Positions 4,002-29,837 of a stretch of 39,132 bases of DNA are shown here, in pieces. This DNA is from Aurantiochytrium sp. KH105 (taxonomy: Eukaryota; Sar; Bigyra; Thraustochytrida; Thraustochytriidae). Within the stretch, counting starts at the first letter, position 1; each line of letters begins with the position of its first letter. The stretch lies in assembly GCA_003116975.1 (NCBI GenBank), contig BGKB01000298.1, positions 1 through 39,132 of the forward strand. Direction: 5' to 3'. The notes beneath the pieces were generated by a model. That model was not told the DNA's origin, did not search any database, and was given only the letters and a program-made list of their open reading frames with translations. Made by a program: the position numbers and the translations under genes.

Positions 4002-5612
4002 TCAATTGAGTTGCATCGAGTATTGCGCCTCAAATACTGTGCTAGTATTCCTTCGTTTGGCTGCGCGCTCCTCCCTTCGTTGCATTTCTTCATCAACGTG
4101 TTTGCGCCAGCGCTTTCGTGCTTTTGCCATGTCAAATTTGTAGTACCGGCCCAAATGAGTTGCAAGAGCGTTGCGACGAGATGCTCTCATGCTATTCGTG
4201 GGCGTACTTTCACATAATCGACCCCCGCCAGTATCGATCGAGAAAATTGTAGCCTCAGAGAGGTTTTGAGGAATAGATTCGTCGACGACGCGAATGCTCG
4301 AGAAATCTTGAATATCTGTGGTACCATCGCTATTCGTCACTACGCGATATTCAGTTTGTCGCCGCACACTTTCGACGCCTGGGCGTGCGTTACGCCTTCG
4401 GCAGTGATTGTAAAGTAAGACACAAGCGCGAAAGATTCCTTGCGCAAACTCAACACAGCTCGTCCTTATGTGGCGTAGGATTCGGAATTTGTTCGTCATA
4501 ATGCCAAATGTGATCTCAATGCGGCATCGCAGCGAAGACAGTTTCTCATTGAAAGAAATATGCTTGATTGCCCGGGACGTTCGCGAGAACGGAGTAAGAA
4601 TCTCATTGGTGCAAGCGTAGGCATTGTCAGCTGCGATCCAGTATTTATCCCCCAATCTTTTTTTCTCGTAGATGGCCTTGGCAAGCGTCGAGTGTCTGAA
4701 AGCAGCAGAGTCTGCTGTGCTACCGTAGTGATACTCGGAAGCAAATGTGATAATGTTATCGGCGTCACACATGCACTGAAACGTGAGCGCATAGTACCCT
4801 TTTCGATTCCAGAATCGTCCGACTTCAGGCACGTCCGGCTTAAGCATACGAATCACAATGCCATCGACGGCACCCACACAGTTTTGCATTGTTCTCAGTC
4901 CTTTGTCGTAATTATAGGTGCGTTTATTGAATCCCGTTGCAAGCGCTTCAATCTTCTCAGGCGAGCCAAAAGGGTCTGAGTCAATGACGTGGTCTTCTTT
5001 TGCAAGGATTGCACTAACACCGTCACGGGCAAGTCGTGGGACAGTATCATGATGAAGGCCAAATTGGTCAGCAATGGAAAGAGAACTTTCACCTCCCAAA
5101 AACATGAGAGTTACTGCCACGATAGTGCGAGGGCAGCAGACAACAATGTCTGAGCGTTTTGCTTTTGTGGAATCTCTCTGTAGATCCTGGTGGTTCCCAA
5201 TGACGTGCATGAGAGACTCAAAGGCAGCAAGGTCCATTCTAATGAAACGGCGAAAAGCTATGTCTCGGTCAATAACTTCCCCATGCCGTTTATAAAGAAA
5301 TGCCTCCCATCCTGTTCGAGGGACGCGCTTCAGAAAGTTGTAGACTCGAGGCTGGCCTCTTAGCCTCCTTGCTTTCGATCTTAAGCCCGCCGCCTTTCGA
5401 AAGCGACCAGAGTTACGCGCAATGATGGCGTCCTGTTCCAGCTGTTCTGCCACTTCCAATTTCAAGATAACCGGCGAGCACCACCACGGCACGAGGGTGC
5501 AGAGTGTTTTGAGTCTTATCTCCAATTCTACCTCCCCAGGGTCGTTGTATGGAGGAATCTCGAGCCTGTAGTGTCTCGACATGACTTTGTGCTTTCTTGT
5601 GAGCAGATACAT
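4002..5612 (-). CDS. PIF/Harbinger-type DDE transposase
   Basis: 536 residues from the first ATG. The catalytic core matches the DDE_4 nuclease family: D250 in GAVDG, D301 in the TADSAAFRHS block, D329 in ADNAY, and E366 in RIEITFG, the usual last acidic residue before a conserved FG. A helix-turn-helix-like stretch (SLSIADQFGLHHDTV, 178-191) precedes it, as in related transposases. The same frame stays open upstream of this ATG as far as a TGA at 5874-5876, with an acidic, Ser/Glu-rich sequence that looks coding. The real N-terminus may therefore lie further upstream and be reached by splicing. It would nick and join the element ends, aided by the Myb-like partner encoded next door on the same strand. 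Whether this copy is functional cannot be told. Confidence 0.85.
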   Translation of the reverse strand: MYLLTRKHKVMSRHYRLEIPPYNDPGEVELEIRLKTLCTLVPWWCSPVILKLEVAEQLEQDAIIARNSGRFRKAAGLRSKARRLRGQPRVYNFLKRVPRTGWEAFLYKRHGEVIDRDIAFRRFIRMDLAAFESLMHVIGNHQDLQRDSTKAKRSDIVVCCPRTIVAVTLMFLGGESSLSIADQFGLHHDTVPRLARDGVSAILAKEDHVIDSDPFGSPEKIEALATGFNKRTYNYDKGLRTMQNCVGAVDGIVIRMLKPDVPEVGRFWNRKGYYALTFQCMCDADNIITFASEYHYGSTADSAAFRHSTLAKAIYEKKRLGDKYWIAADNAYACTNEILTPFSRTSRAIKHISFNEKLSSLRCRIEITFGIMTNKFRILRHIRTSCVEFAQGIFRACVLLYNHCRRRNARPGVESVRRQTEYRVVTNSDGTTDIQDFSSIRVVDESIPQNLSEATIFSIDTGGGRLCESTPTNSMRASRRNALATHLGRYYKFDMAKARKRWRKHVDEEMQRREERAAKRRNTSTVFEAQYSMQLN

Positions 5613-11722: not shown

Positions 11723-14585
11723 TTAGATGCGCTCGAGGAGATCAAGACCGAGGATGGTCATGGACGTCTTGAGGGCGACGCGCACGGAGCGAATGAGAAT
11801 GAGCCAGTTGACACCGTGCTCGTCGGCGAGCTTCTTCTCAGACTTGATGATCAGCTGGTGGGTGTTGTAGAACTTGCTGGCGGCGCGGCAGACCTCGTAG
11901 ACGTACTTGCACAGGTGGTGAGGCTGCAGCTTGCTGACGGACTCATCGAAGCGGTCGCCAAAGCGGAGAATAGCGAGCGCGAGGTCCCACTCTTGCGAGC
12001 GCATGCGCTCGACACAGAAAGTGGCCTTGCCCTCCTCGATGATGGCATCGACGTCCTTGCCAATGACATCCTTGACGGTGCGCTCGATGCTGCACATGCG
12101 CGCGTACGTGTACATGAGATAGACGGCGGTGTCACCGTCGCTCTGGAGCATGAGGTCATAATTGAACACATAGTCCTTGATGCGCGCATTCTTGAGATCA
12201 AAGTACTTGACAGCAGAGTAGCCGAGCTTGTTGGCGGCGTCCGGGGCCTCTTCTTTGGTGAGAAGGCACGTCTTGGCCTCGATGCGCTCCTCAAGGTCCT
12301 TGGCCATGCGGTCACGCGCCTCGTCGAGAAGATCAACAAGACGCACGGTGCCGCCCTCGCGCGTGCGGAAGCGCTGCCTGTCGGCGCCCTGCACGACGCC
12401 AAAGGCAACGTGATCGCATTGCACGCTGTCGTCAATGTAGCCAGCGCGAAGCGCGGCCTCAAAAACGGCAAAAAAGTGACGCTGCTGACCAGCGTCAGTC
12501 ACATACACGAGCCAGTCACATCCGAGCTCCTGCGCGCGGTATTTGATGGCGGCCATGTCGGTTGTGTCGTAGCCATAGCCACCATCACGCTTGACCACAA
12601 AGAGTGGCACACTGTTGGCCTCGGTGCGAATCACCCTGGCACCATCATCGTTCTCGAGTAAGCCCAGCTTGTTAAGCTCCTCGACAATACCGGGGATGCG
12701 CGAGTTGTAGAACGACTCGCCGGTCACGCCGTCCGGGAACGAAACGTTCAGACGATCGTAAATCTGGTTCAGCATGGACTCGCTGATCGACAGATACAGT
12801 TTCCAGCCTGCCACGGCTTGCGGGTCGCCGGCCTGCAGCTTGACCACCTCGAGCCGGGATTCCTCCTTGAACTCTTCTGACTCATCGAAGGCCTTTTTGG
12901 CGGCCTTGTAGAATGCCTGTGCTCATTGCATCGTCCACGCGCTGTCAGTTTCGTGTGTCCTTCCAAAATAACTTTCCATCGCCACCTCAACTTTCTCATT
13001 CTCTTCTCTTTTCCCCTGCCTCCATTTCTCTCTCTCTCTCTCTCTCTCTCTCTTGTACATTGTTTCTGCCATTTGATGAAAAGCAAAAAGCAAAAGCAAA
13101 AGAATAGGTTGTCAGCAACCGAAAGACCACCCCGTCCACCATCATAAAAAGGTCGGGGCGGTGAGTTATGGTGCGATACTTGCTCTTGCACCCGGAAGTC
13201 ACGCAGCCGCAACGCTCGCAAAAGAAGCTCTATCGCAGCTGAAAACAAGAGAATCCAGAACAAGCCTGAGCTCTCTTGCGCGACCCGAATGCTTTTCTTT
13301 CCCCCATCCCTTTCTCTCTTTCACCTCTTTTTTTCGCCCCGAGGCCCCTCGAAAAGGACTTTTGCCAGGTCTCTACAAACCTCTCTCTCCTCATACTTAC
13401 ATTCAAATCCGAGATGGACGGTTTTTCCTCAAGATAGTTCGGGTTGTTGTGACGCATGTACGTGAGCAGCATGCCAAATTGCGTACCCCAGTCGCCAACG
13501 TGGTTGATGCGCTTGACCTCGTGACCCTGAAAGGTCAGCATCCGGCAAAGCACCTCACCAATGACAGTGGAGCGCAAGTGGCCAACGTGCATCTCCTTGG
13601 CCACGTTAGGAGACGAAAAGTCGAGCGCAACCTTTTTCAAGGAGAGCGCACGAGGCGGAGAGAGCTCTCCCTGCTCGACAATTTTGCGCAGACGCTCCGC
13701 AACGAGCTTTTCATTCAGGAACAAGTTGATGAAACCCTTGCCTGAAACTTCGGCACGCTCGATAATGTCCGGATACACGCGGGGCTCATCCCGAAGATGC
13801 TGCGCGAGGGCCTCGGCAGCATCCTTGGGCTCTTTCCAGTCGGCACGGCGCGCGCGCTTGAAGAGGGCCATGGCGCTGTTAAGCTGAAAGTCAGGCTTCG
13901 GGCCATCATTCTTGGAAAATCCCTCTTGCACGTTGGAATCCATGCCAGGGAGCTCCTTGGCGACAGCCAAATCGCACGCCTCCTTGACCACCTTCCAGAG
14001 ATCGCTCTGCGGGTCCTGGGCGTTATCGAGGTAAGAAAAGAGCGCAATCTTGAACTCGTCTTCGGACGATTTCAAGCACGAATCAAATTCCGGGTGCTTC
14101 ATTGTGAGCTTTTCAAGCCACGAGGACGCAAGCGGGCCCAGTGGCAAACCGCGCTCCTTGGCAAACCGCAGAGAGCAGCCAATGCAGACGTCCGCAAGGC
14201 TCAGGGTCTCAGAGGCGAGGTAAGGGCCCGTCAGCTTGGCGAGGCGGTCCTCAAGGCTGGTGTCGAGTGCGTCTGCGGAAGCAGCAGAGGCGCCCAGCAC
14301 GATCTCGTCAAACTCTGCAAGCTCGTTCATGGTGATGCTCGTGTTGTCGATCTTGGGCATGCCGGCGGCCAAAAGATACCTGCAGATGGCATGCTCGCCG
14401 AGGAGCGGAGCCTTGCCCTTCTCCAGCGCAAGCACGGGAAGTCTACCGGGGCTTGGCACGACCGTCTTTGCCGCGTTGACAATCTCGAGCGTCGCGCCCG
14501 ACAGCGCCGCGGCCACCTTGCACTTGTACGCGGCCAGACGCGCGGCCGCGCCGGGGCCCGAGATCAGTTTCATCGGTGTCGCCAT
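11723..14585 (-). CDS. RARS: Arginyl-tRNA synthetase, cytosolic, with GST-like N-terminal domain; two exons
   Basis: Exon 1 is 14585-13401 (395 codons) and exon 2 is 12916-11723 (397 codons plus stop), giving 792 residues. The join ...SDLN|AFYKAAKKAFDE restores the conserved stretch after the Rossmann fold. The class I signature is HVGH at 333-336. The loop RTREGGTVRLVDLLDEA stands where other enzymes have KMSKS, as is normal for eukaryotic ArgRS. The anticodon-binding domain fills the C-terminal third and ends in a hydrophobic helix. It charges tRNA-Arg. Residues 1 to about 170 look like a glutathione-S-transferase-like fold (SPGRLPVLALE, a GEHAICRYL region, TGPYLASETLSLADVCIGCSL), a protein-docking module found in other synthetases. 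Human ArgRS has a leucine-rich coiled coil here instead. Divergent from CFAP52. Confidence 0.93.
12917..13400 (-). other. Spliceosomal intron of the arginyl-tRNA synthetase gene
   Basis: 484 bp with a GTAAGT donor (13400-13395), a CTGAC branch motif (12948-12944) whose A lies 28 nt before the end, and a CACAG acceptor. Phase 0. It includes a CT dinucleotide run (about 13029-13052). It is the best reference intron in the window for judging other splice sites. Confidence 0.9.
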
Positions 14586-27176: not shown

Positions 27177-28898
27177 ATGAACGTGGCCAATGGCACCTTC
27201 GCCTCGTGGCCCGAAGAGCTGGCCAAAAGCGCGCAGCTGCGCTCCGAAAAGCGTGCCATTGCAGAGCTGACGAGTGATGGCATGGGCGTGCGACGCGAAC
27301 TCAACTTTGCTCAGCTATGGCACGCGAGTCTCGGTGTGGCGCAGTGGCTTCGCGAGCGAGAGGTCAAGAACAAGAGCCGCTTTGTTATTCTGGGCGATGA
27401 CTCGCTGGAGCACGTCGTTCTCTGGGCAGCAGCTGCTCTGAGTGGGGCTGTGGCAGTCACGGTGGATGCGGCTTCCCCACTCACCTCCATTCTGGATGTC
27501 ATCGAGGACGCAGAGTACGTTTTAACTTTGAGGACGCGCAAACACCTATACAATTGGATGCTGACACGCTAGCACAGGCCTTCGGCAGTGCTCATTCTCG
27601 AAAACAAAGGCAGCGACCTTGTTTCTGCAGAGCGTGCTTTGCAGATTCGTGAGGCCTGCAAGCAGCCGATTCGAGTATATACCCTCGCACCTGGACAGCT
27701 TCTCGATGAGTCAAAAGATCTCGGCGCGGAATTTCCCTTTGAAAAGCGACGTGATCGCGATTTGGAGGCGCCATGGGCAATTTTATACACGTCAGGGACA
27801 TCGACAGGCCGTAAAAAGGGTGTCGTGAGGTCGCAGCGAGGTCACTTGCTCGGCTACTTTGCCCACCTACCGCACATGCACTTTCGTCCGGCGCAGGAGA
27901 CCTTTTTGGCGATTTATCCACTGCATGGTATCTCCAGCTTCTTTTTCGTGACAATGCTCTTGTATCTGGGCAATTCGGTGCTCTTGCTGTCGCGAGAGCA
28001 CGCAACCTCGGGAAGAGTTCTATACAATGCGGCAAATGAGTTCCCTGTTACCTATACCACGGGTGGCCCGGCGCATCTTGTTTCTATCATTGACCACGCA
28101 GAAGCGCACGCAAATGGGAAGCAGCTTCTGGACCTGCGCATGATCATGGCGAGTGGGGCCATGACGTCAAAAGCCACTCAGGAGCGAATCCGAGCCTTTT
28201 ACGCGAATGCATCCTTTTACGAGGTGTACGGGTCCACGGAGGCCGGGATCATTTCCATTCTAGATCCCACCGACTTCAAGGGTAATGAGGGCTCTGTGGG
28301 CATCGAACCGAGCGGCGTGAGCATGGTACGTTTCGTCGACCCCGTGTCGGGCGAGCCAGTTGCAGGGACGCTCCAGGCCCCGGGCGAGATTGCGGTGCGA
28401 ACGCCAATGATGTGCCGCGGATATTGGCGTCGGTCGCCAGAGCACATTGACGGTTGGTTTTCGACCGGCGACATGGGCTATCGGAGCGATGCTGGTTTTC
28501 TCTACCTTCTCGGTCGGGCCGATGATCGCATCACTTTGCCCACGGGTGCCAGTTTTTACCCTTCCGAGGTCGAGCGTGTACTTTTGCGCCACGAGCGCGT
28601 TTCCCAGGTGGTTGTTTTTTGGGATGACGGCGTTCAGACGCTCGCGGCTCTAGTGCTCGCGCGCAACACCATTTTGCTGCCTGCAGGACCTGCAGCCGAG
28701 GCCGACAGCGACGCAACCGCGGAGGCTGTTTCCGGCGGCGAGATAGAGCGCTCGATTCGCGCGCACAGCGAGGCTCACTTGGCGCCGCATCTTGTTCCGG
28801 ATGTGGTCCTGCCTCTCTCCGAGACCTCTTGGGCCAAATTGCCCAAGACGGCCACGCGCAAGATCATGCGCTCGCGTCTCCGACTGCATTCCCTGTGA
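27177..28898 (+). CDS. AMP-forming acyl-CoA synthetase-like (ANL superfamily), two exons
   Basis: Exon 1 27177-27514 and exon 2 27578-28898 join in phase (GA|G, Glu) to 552 residues. The spliced text reads IEDAEPSAVLILEN across the junction, as expected after the first subdomain. Motifs: YTSGTSTGRKKGVV (A3, about 180), YGSTEAG (A5, about 330), GWFSTGDMG (A7, about 405), LLGRADDRI (A8), and PKTATRKI near 535 with the A10 lysine. Such enzymes activate a carboxylic acid as acyl-AMP and pass it to CoA or another thiol. The acid cannot be told from sequence. No peroxisomal SKL-type end and no clear signal peptide. Stop codon is followed after 2 bp by TAGGCCTA. Confidence 0.88.
27515..27577 (+). 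other. 63-bp spliceosomal intron of the acyl-CoA synthetase-like gene
   Basis: Donor GTACGT (27515), CTGAC branch motif at 27561-27565, acceptor CACAG|G. Phase 2. Its removal is required to keep the frame, since a stop (TAG) at 27570-27572 closes the unspliced frame. Confidence 0.85.
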
Positions 28899-29180
28899 TA
28901 TAGGCCTAAATCACTGGCGGGCAATCTTCATCAATTTCATTTCTACGCACATCTTGGTCGCTCGAATGCTTTTTCTCAGCCACTTCCCCTTCTTTGGCCT
29001 CGTACACGGACCTCAGCTCTCTGCGCGTCCCGTCTCTCTCCCCTCGGCCCCAAGACCCCATCAAACGTTCGGTTGCTCGAGTGGCCACCGCTCCTGTCCC
29101 TTATAAGAAAGTGTCCAACTTTTGGCCCCAGCCTTCAGGCAAAGGGACCGCAAGTACCGGACCCCGCGCACTGTTTAGCT
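28899..29180. other. Spacer upstream of the tRNA gene
   Basis: 282 bp with TAGGCCTA at 28901-28908 and otherwise no structure I can name. Confidence 0.5.
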
Positions 29181-29329
29181 TCCGGCTTAGTAAGTCCTAC
29201 TGCTGGAACCTTGGTGATCGTACACCAGTCCGCTAACAGAAGTAACTGCTTCCTTCGCAATCTCAGGCTCAGTGGTAGAGCGTTTGACTTTTAATCAAAT
29301 GGTCGTGAGTTCGATCCTCACAGTCGGAA
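29181..29329 (+). tRNA. tRNA-Lys (anticodon UUU) interrupted after base 9 by an intron
   Basis: Bases 29181-29189 are the acceptor 5' strand TCCGGCT plus T8 and A9. 29267-29329 carry the rest. D arm GCTC/GAGC with AGTGGTA loop. Anticodon stem TTTGA/TCAAA around CTTTTAA (anticodon TTT at 29290-29292). Variable loop TGGTC. T arm GTGAG/CTCAC around TTCGATC. Acceptor 3' strand AGTCGGA and discriminator A. The acceptor pairs over all seven positions with one G-T wobble. All conserved bases (T8, A14, G15, G18-G19, A21, T33, C48, T54-T55-C56, A58) are present. Without the nine bases at 29181-29189 the bases next to the D arm do not pair at all with the 3' acceptor strand. A box: AGGCTCAGTGG across the intron end and exon 2; B box: GAGTTCGATCC. 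A Pol III T-run follows. Introns in nuclear tRNA genes usually sit at 37/38. Confidence 0.85.
29190..29266 (+). other. 77-bp intron inside the tRNA-Lys gene, with spliceosomal-type signals
   Basis: Donor GTAAGT (29190-29195), branch motif CTAAC (29233-29237, A 30 nt before the end), pyrimidine-rich TGCTTCCTTC (29248-29257), acceptor CTCAG|G. Because a G occurs at both edges, a junction one base to the right gives the same RNA. I found no bulge-helix-bulge: only three of four central pairs form and the flanking helices do not. See findings. Confidence 0.75.
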
Positions 29330-29350
29330 ACGAGCAGCAACGTTTCCATC

Positions 29351-29372
29351 TTTTTTTTTCTTTTTTTTTTTT
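29351..29372 (+). terminator. Pol III terminator of the tRNA gene
   Basis: Nine T, a C, then twelve T, starting 22 bases past the discriminator base. The rest of the gap up to 29837 is the 5' region of the next gene and holds no ORF of its own. Confidence 0.75.
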
Positions 29373-29837
29373 CCTTCGTCTTCTTCTCCAAGTTGTTGTT
29401 TGACGACCCGAGGAAGACGAAGGAGACGAAGAAGATCTTGAAGAACGTCGATGGCGATGAGACCAGATCGGATCAGATGCAAAGCTGAGAAAGTCGCTCT
29501 CGCGCGCGGCGGGAGACTGGTGACTGCATGCGCAGCTGGCAATTGTGGCAGTAGGCTACATTACCTTGCGACGCGTTGATTTTCTGGGGGCGTGGCGTGA
29601 GTGAGAAAAGCGAGCGCGGGAAAAGATAGCGAGAGCTCTTCTGCGTGTCTCACGAGCCAACTCGTCTCGGGCAGTTCTGCAACCAGAGACGGCACGCCAC
29701 GCAGGCAGGCGACGCGGCCGCGACTGCACGGAGAGACTCGCGCTCTCGGTCCGTGGACGCGCTCGGGAGCGGAGCGGCGCGGCGATCTTTGAAGACGCGA
29801 ACAACGCCACCGCTCGACACCGAGACCGAAAGAAATC

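Follow-up and report, generated by a model that had tools for sequence, protein, structure and literature searches.

Introns of tRNA genes and other short RNA genes

Intron removal in eukaryotes follows a division of labour, in which mRNA introns are taken out by the spliceosome and nuclear tRNA introns by a protein endonuclease. The usual site of action of the eukaryotic nuclear tRNA endonucleases is tRNA position 37/38. Introns of the mRNA type are also present in Schizosaccharomyces pombe and in certain further fungi within the genes for U6 snRNA, where GT-AG ends and a branch site lie within a short Pol III-transcribed RNA gene and the intron is removed by the spliceosome. U6 itself belongs to the catalytic centre of the spliceosome, which suggests that these introns arose by reverse splicing. 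tRNA introns away from position 37/38 occur in the red alga Cyanidioschyzon merolae and in the Guillardia theta nucleomorph. The ectopic introns of C. merolae are 11-69 bp long and form bulge-helix-bulge motifs of several kinds on which the tRNA endonuclease acts, and TATA-like sequences are found upstream (PMC3978253).

The window analysed here is a 39,132-nt stretch of DNA on contig BGKB01000298.1 of the thraustochytrid Aurantiochytrium sp. KH105, and contains a tRNA-Lys(UUU) gene that resembles each of these systems in part. Its intron, like those of C. merolae and the G. theta nucleomorph, lies away from position 37/38, but where C. merolae has a bulge-helix-bulge (PMC3978253), none can be drawn here and mRNA splice signals are present. 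Canonical tRNA introns at 37/38 also interrupt nuclear tRNA genes, and in this genome four tRNA-Asn(GUU) genes have such introns of 24 nt, whereas the intron of tRNA-Lys(UUU) is 77 nt long, lies at position 9/10 and has GT-AG ends and a branch site. It shares these last features with the fungal U6 introns, although its removal by the spliceosome is proposed from its signals and its host is a tRNA.

The searches of the open-access literature brought up no account of a tRNA gene with a spliceosomal intron; subscription papers lay mostly outside their scope. Two thraustochytrid genome papers (PMC7073664 and PMC12258536) give tRNA counts and, in their available portions, nothing on tRNA introns. 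The available portions of PMC4494063, PMC6461891, PMC4053861, PMC13247085 and PMC10161547 contain nothing on a spliceosomal tRNA intron; the last of these describes tRNA-Leu(UAA) as apparently missing from Diplonema, a gap that nothing connects with such a mechanism. The kind of intron is known, and within the literature covered the tRNA host is new.

Structure of the split gene

The tRNA-Lys(UUU) gene is on the plus strand. Exon 1 (29181..29189), which reads TCCGGCTTA, supplies the 5′ strand of the acceptor stem together with T8-A9. Exon 2 (29267..29329) extends from the D arm to the discriminator A at 29329, reads GCTCAGTGG...CAGTCGGAA, and is supported by Rfam and by ARAGORN on the joined sequence. 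The 77-nt intron between them (29190..29266) interrupts the tRNA at position 9/10 and has the signals of the major spliceosome, GTAAGT ... GCTAAC ... CTCAG. The position of the splice point is ambiguous by one base (TTA/G or TTAG/). Joining the exons gives a 72-nt tRNA-Lys with the anticodon UUU and a complete cloverleaf, called tRNA-Lys(ttt) by ARAGORN once the 77 nt are removed. Its acceptor stem has seven pairs, T-A, C-G, C-G, G-C, G-T, C-G and T-A, one of them a G-U pair. The initial annotation had described a tRNA-Lys gene split after base 9 by 77 nt, with a cloverleaf and full acceptor pairing when the insert is taken out; the bases at 29181-29329 are as it gave them, and the cloverleaf is borne out by the ARAGORN call. 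At the junction the joined tRNA is identical to the 14 intronless tRNA-Lys(CUU) genes of this genome (TTAGCTCAG), and 62 of the 72 positions are identical overall.

ARAGORN finds no tRNA gene in the unspliced window and none in the second allele, on contig C7 (L002, L039); a tRNA-Leu(cag) with a 243-nt intron that it called in L001 and L046 is a misreading of the tRNA-Lys(UUU) locus. Since the gene was missed or misread in this way, others like it may lie undetected in genomes that appear to lack an isoacceptor. The Rfam tRNA model matches only 29266-29321 of the window (model positions 9-63 of 71, 49.8 bits), and tRNA is the sole entry reported for the window at gathering scores. In thermodynamic folding, the minimum-energy fold of the joined tRNA is without a proper D arm. 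The alternative of a mature tRNA whose 5′ end lies immediately before the D arm was discarded on inspection by eye, since its acceptor strand would be 29258-29264, which does not pair with AGTCGGA.

Splice signals of the intron

The intron has the sequence signals expected of a U2-type intron. The 5′ splice site, GTAAGT (29190..29195, plus strand), agrees with the GTRAGT sequence that matches U1 and U6 and is identical in the C7 allele. The branch site, CTAAC (29233..29237, plus strand), has its branch A at 29236, 30 nt before the intron end and within the usual distance of about 18-40 nt from the 3′ splice site. With the branch A left out, five of six positions of CGCTAAC pair with the GTAGTA of this genome's own U2. 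A pyrimidine-rich stretch leads to a YAG 3′ splice site (29247..29266, plus strand; TGCTTCCTTCGCAATCTCAG), and the intron ends in CTCAG. An insert opening with GTAAGT, with CTAAC 30 nt before its end, a pyrimidine-rich stretch and a final CAG is what the initial annotation had reported, and every base of it is confirmed. Membership in group I or group II does not fit, since 77 nt is below the size of either catalytic core and Rfam reports tRNA alone.

The coincidence of these signals with the tRNA junction can be set against motif frequencies. Over 214,234 positions (both strands), there are 19 instances of a 9-mer that fits the acceptor 3′ strand and supplies T8-R9, and 18 of GTAAGT, the locus itself being part of both counts. 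If the motifs are independent, the two would be expected to coincide within 500 nt 3.7e-6 times, and together with the CAG and the branch site about 1.6e-9 times, as the product of motif frequencies. When the 500 nt preceding the D arm were shuffled 20,000 times with dinucleotide composition preserved, an acceptor-compatible 9-mer appeared in 1199 of the shuffled sequences and was directly followed by GTRAG in one. It is very unlikely that GTAAGT, CTAAC and CAG arose here by chance.

Three mRNA-type introns of this genome were compared with the tRNA intron. That of the arginyl-tRNA synthetase (ArgRS) gene (12917-13400, minus strand) has GTAAGT, CTGAC 28 nt before its end and CACAG, and that of the acyl-CoA synthetase gene (27515-27577, 63 nt) has GTACGT, CTGAC and ACAG; removal of either leaves an open frame. 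The intron of a Sen2-like gene has GTAAGT and CTGAC, and its 3′ end is unsettled. Thus, donor, branch and acceptor signals are alike in the tRNA intron and the ArgRS and acyl-CoA synthetase introns, as are donor and branch signals in the Sen2-like gene; the difference lies in the host, here a tRNA gene that is probably transcribed by Pol III. The first two introns had already been named for comparison; the first is real but is on the minus strand, and the second starts with GTACGT. Splice motifs are not enriched in 129,542 bases (GTAAGT..CTRAC..CAG 4 times against 3 in the reversed sequence, a looser form 9 against 28), a comparison for which reversed sequence is a poor null, and the likeness to three introns therefore has no genome-wide profile behind it.

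The RNAs that would read these signals are partly visible in the assembly. U2 is present, with GTAGTA, and U6 is present, with ACAGAGA, in two copies that both match the whole model and have no intron. The Rfam U1 model gave no match, and its control also matched nowhere, so that this result is uninformative.

Removal of the intron

We read the locus, with good confidence, as a functional nuclear gene for tRNA-Lys(UUU), whose intron at position 9/10 is of the U2 type and is most likely removed by the spliceosome. Our picture of Pol III transcription, of splicing and its agent, and of the sequence in which the steps follow is inferred. Pol III would start upstream of exon 1 under the direction of a TATA box and end at a run of T. 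U1 and U6 would engage GUAAGU and U2 would engage GCUAAC; the major spliceosome would then excise the 77 nt as a lariat and join UUA to GCUCAG, after which RNase P, RNase Z and CCA addition would complete the tRNA. The initial annotation had proposed that Pol III transcribes a precursor with a GT-AG intron and left its fate undecided among the spliceosome, an endonuclease and no removal at all. The spliceosome is favoured by the mRNA-like signals, the failure to draw a bulge-helix-bulge, a TATA box spaced from exon 1, the shared gene structure of the two haplotypes and the failure of the searches to find a second nuclear UUU gene; the same evidence argues against a pseudogene.

The alternative that survives best, though it is unlikely, is an ectopic tRNA intron cut out by a Sen-type endonuclease, the tRNA being resealed by tRNA ligase, a route proposed for C. 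merolae and the G. theta nucleomorph; the GT-AG appearance would then be due to coincidence or descent. Sen-type endonuclease domains are found at four places in the genome, most simply two genes in two haplotypes, and of the eight tRNA-Asn(GUU) genes examined, four, on contigs C111 and C126, are 97 nt long with a 24-nt intron in the anticodon loop and lie no more than about 2 kb from intronless ones. The usual tRNA-splicing pathway therefore exists, and the endonuclease stays alive as an explanation. Moreover, many ectopic introns of the G. theta nucleomorph are without a defined bulge-helix-bulge, according to PMC3978253. For the present intron, however, the lack of this motif counts against the endonuclease: at the natural splice point two of four central pairs of a bulge-helix-bulge can form, and none of four when the splice point is slid by one base; with central helices of 3-5 bp allowed at both junctions, the best are 3/5, 2/4 and 1/3. 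This agrees with the earlier statement that no bulge-helix-bulge could be drawn, two of four central pairs being the best at hand. The position, 9/10, is not the 37/38 that is usual among substrates of the eukaryotic nuclear enzymes, and the other tRNA introns seen in this genome, those of the four tRNA-Asn genes, are in the anticodon loop. Finally, GTAAGT, CTAAC and CAG are very unlikely to have come together by coincidence.

Transcription signals

Upstream of the gene is a TATA-like box, TATAAG (29102..29107, plus strand), which lies 79 nt upstream of the start of exon 1. Downstream, a run of nine T (29351..29359, plus strand), 21 nt after the last tRNA base, is a probable Pol III terminator, and T runs are also present 3′ of other tRNA genes of this genome that were examined. 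Seven of the 14 intronless tRNA-Lys(CUU) genes have a TATA sequence at -78 to -80, seven of eight in the cluster on contigs C66 and C103 and none of six in that on C21 and C68, and two of four tRNA-Thr(CGU) genes have one at -79. The seven tRNA-Lys(CUU) genes that have no TATA at -78 to -80 are a point against the main reading. The box at -79 from exon 1, like that of other tRNA genes, suggests that in genes with such a box its distance is measured from exon 1 rather than from the D arm, which lies 77 nt farther downstream. The usual position of a TATA box is about -30. Of 34 nuclear tRNA genes of this genome that were examined, a number that excludes two spurious calls and the split gene itself, 13 have one farther upstream, at -58 to -85. 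The tRNA-Arg(ACG) genes have theirs at -33 or -54, or none.

Inspection by eye shows that the intron splits the A box, the first two bases of which are replaced by the last AG of the intron. The sequence of the B-box region, AGTTCGATCC, differs from the consensus by one base. The 14 tRNA-Lys(CUU) genes have, also by eye, a common block of about 45 nt directly 5′ of the tRNA, which consists of GGGAAA, a hairpin of the GGCGA/TCGCC or GGTGA/TCACC type and a GGTA end, while the sequences farther upstream are mostly dissimilar. This block is a candidate promoter element or leader RNA, and the tRNA-Lys(UUU) gene is without it.

The tRNA might instead be cut from a Pol II transcript, for example a read-through of the acyl-CoA synthetase gene, and be spliced within it, so that the intron would still be spliceosomal. 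Spliceosomes act mainly on Pol II transcripts, and the tRNA-Lys(UUU) gene is on the same strand as both of its neighbours, with the acyl-CoA synthetase frame ending 282 nt upstream. Opposed to a Pol II origin are the TATA spacing, which is that of other tRNA genes, and the T9 run 21 nt past the tRNA, and we consider this origin improbable, slightly more so than removal by an endonuclease.

Alleles and supply of tRNA-Lys(UUU)

The split gene occurs twice in the assembly, in the window and on contig C7, both times with the intron. The two contigs have the same stretch in two pieces that are 94.8% and 95.6% alike over 10 kb. Most simply they would be two haplotypes, and the gene is apparently present as one copy in each. 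The neighbouring inositol-pentakisphosphate 2-kinase is 99% identical to a protein named as that of another thraustochytrid, Hondaea fermentalgiana. The exons of the two alleles are identical at all 72 positions, whereas a difference is found at 1 of 77 positions in the intron and at 3 of 86 in the leader, including the TATA box. The well-aligned flanks differ at 20 of 191 positions upstream and 20 of 385 downstream from 29450 (40 of 576 pooled), counts from which 29350-29449, a segment that aligns badly around an inversion (29386-29422), was left out. For the intron of the acyl-CoA synthetase gene the figure is 3 of 63. The low divergence of the tRNA intron is weakly significant against the pooled flanks (Fisher P 0.034), with P at 0.11 against the downstream flank alone and at 0.0017 when part of 29350-29449 is retained.

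A search of the assembly (76.0 Mb in 367 contigs) points to this gene as the sole nuclear source of its isoacceptor. Similarity to tRNA-Lys gives 17 matches, namely the two alleles, the 14 intronless genes on C21, C66, C68 and C103, all CUU by ARAGORN, and one match on the organelle-like contig C366, which has its own tRNA-Lys(ttt). The pattern CTTTTAA-N15-TTCRA has nine matches: the two alleles, the organellar gene and six loci where ARAGORN finds no tRNA. The pattern AGAGCNNNNGRCTTTTA, which would also catch a UUU gene with an intron at 37/38 provided that its D arm ends alike, has two matches, both in the split gene. Hence neither the similarity search nor the two pattern searches of the assembly revealed a second nuclear tRNA-Lys(UUU) gene. 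An intact copy elsewhere, together with the lack of a mature RNA with the TCCGGCT 5′ end, was one of the findings that the initial annotation had named as fatal to its proposal; no such copy was found on the nuclear contigs, and the one on C366 is organelle-like. On viral contigs the intron-end/exon 2 pattern has no match. A plant-like tRNA-Tyr query, possibly too distant, also had no match. For the tRNA inventory, 63 of 1392 candidates were scored with the tRNA model of Rfam.

AAA accounts for 37 of 154 Lys codons in six coding sequences of the window, the acyl-CoA synthetase being counted without its first exon. Because of this demand, and because no other nuclear tRNA-Lys(UUU) gene was found, the split gene is very probably functional, in which case its intron must be removed. 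A dead tRNA gene broken by an insertion, with AAA left to a tRNA whose own gene is divergent, unrecognized or absent from the assembly, is most improbable. Even though the assembly may be incomplete and a UUU gene in which both the anticodon loop and the D arm are unusual would have escaped the searches, no second nuclear UUU gene was found, the junction is exact and has splice signals, the TATA box and T run are intact, and the exons are unchanged between alleles that are about 95% alike over 10 kb and have the 40 differences in their flanks.

Folding of the precursor and consequences

The sequence around the gene may keep the tRNA from folding before it is spliced. When the precursor (29131-29362) is modelled thermodynamically, its acceptor stem barely forms, with pair probabilities of 0.003-0.004. 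The predicted partner of exon 1 is the intron segment GCTGGAA, and the 3′ strand of the acceptor stem is drawn into a competing 7-bp hairpin, GGAAACG...CGTTTCC (29326..29347, plus strand), which combines the tRNA 3′ end with the trailer and has a predicted energy of -8.0 kcal/mol. When leader and trailer are omitted, the acceptor stem forms around the intron. The helix of exon 1 and intron joins TTCCGGC (29180-29186) to GCTGGAA (29202-29208); a 7-bp complement of this kind occurs in 334 of 20,000 shuffles, and the helix is suggestive only. Together, the intron and trailer helices could delay folding of the tRNA until after splicing. In the model of the full precursor, the probability of being unpaired is 0.63 for the 5′ splice site and 0.65 for the CAG, both of which are thus mostly open, but the branch site, at 0.35, is mostly paired, which would speak against an easy picture of splicing within this fold.

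If the spliceosome does remove the intron, the whole nuclear supply of tRNA-Lys(UUU), and with it the reading of AAA, would probably depend on its action on a Pol III transcript, with the acceptor strands held apart by the helices until splicing; we hold this somewhat less firmly than the spliceosomal reading itself. A third route of tRNA intron removal would then stand beside endonuclease and ligase and self-splicing. A Pol III tRNA precursor would be a natural substrate of the spliceosome, with AAA decoding dependent on splicing, and spliceosomal introns would be able to enter an essential tRNA gene and persist there.

Two further features of the window are of a different kind. A segment of 37 nt downstream of the tRNA (29386-29422), amid pyrimidine- and purine-rich sequence, is inverted in the C7 allele, where it is 97% identical on the opposite strand. 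Far upstream, an open reading frame of 536 aa (4002-5612, minus strand) has a DDE_Tnp_4 transposase domain and is presumably Harbinger-like.
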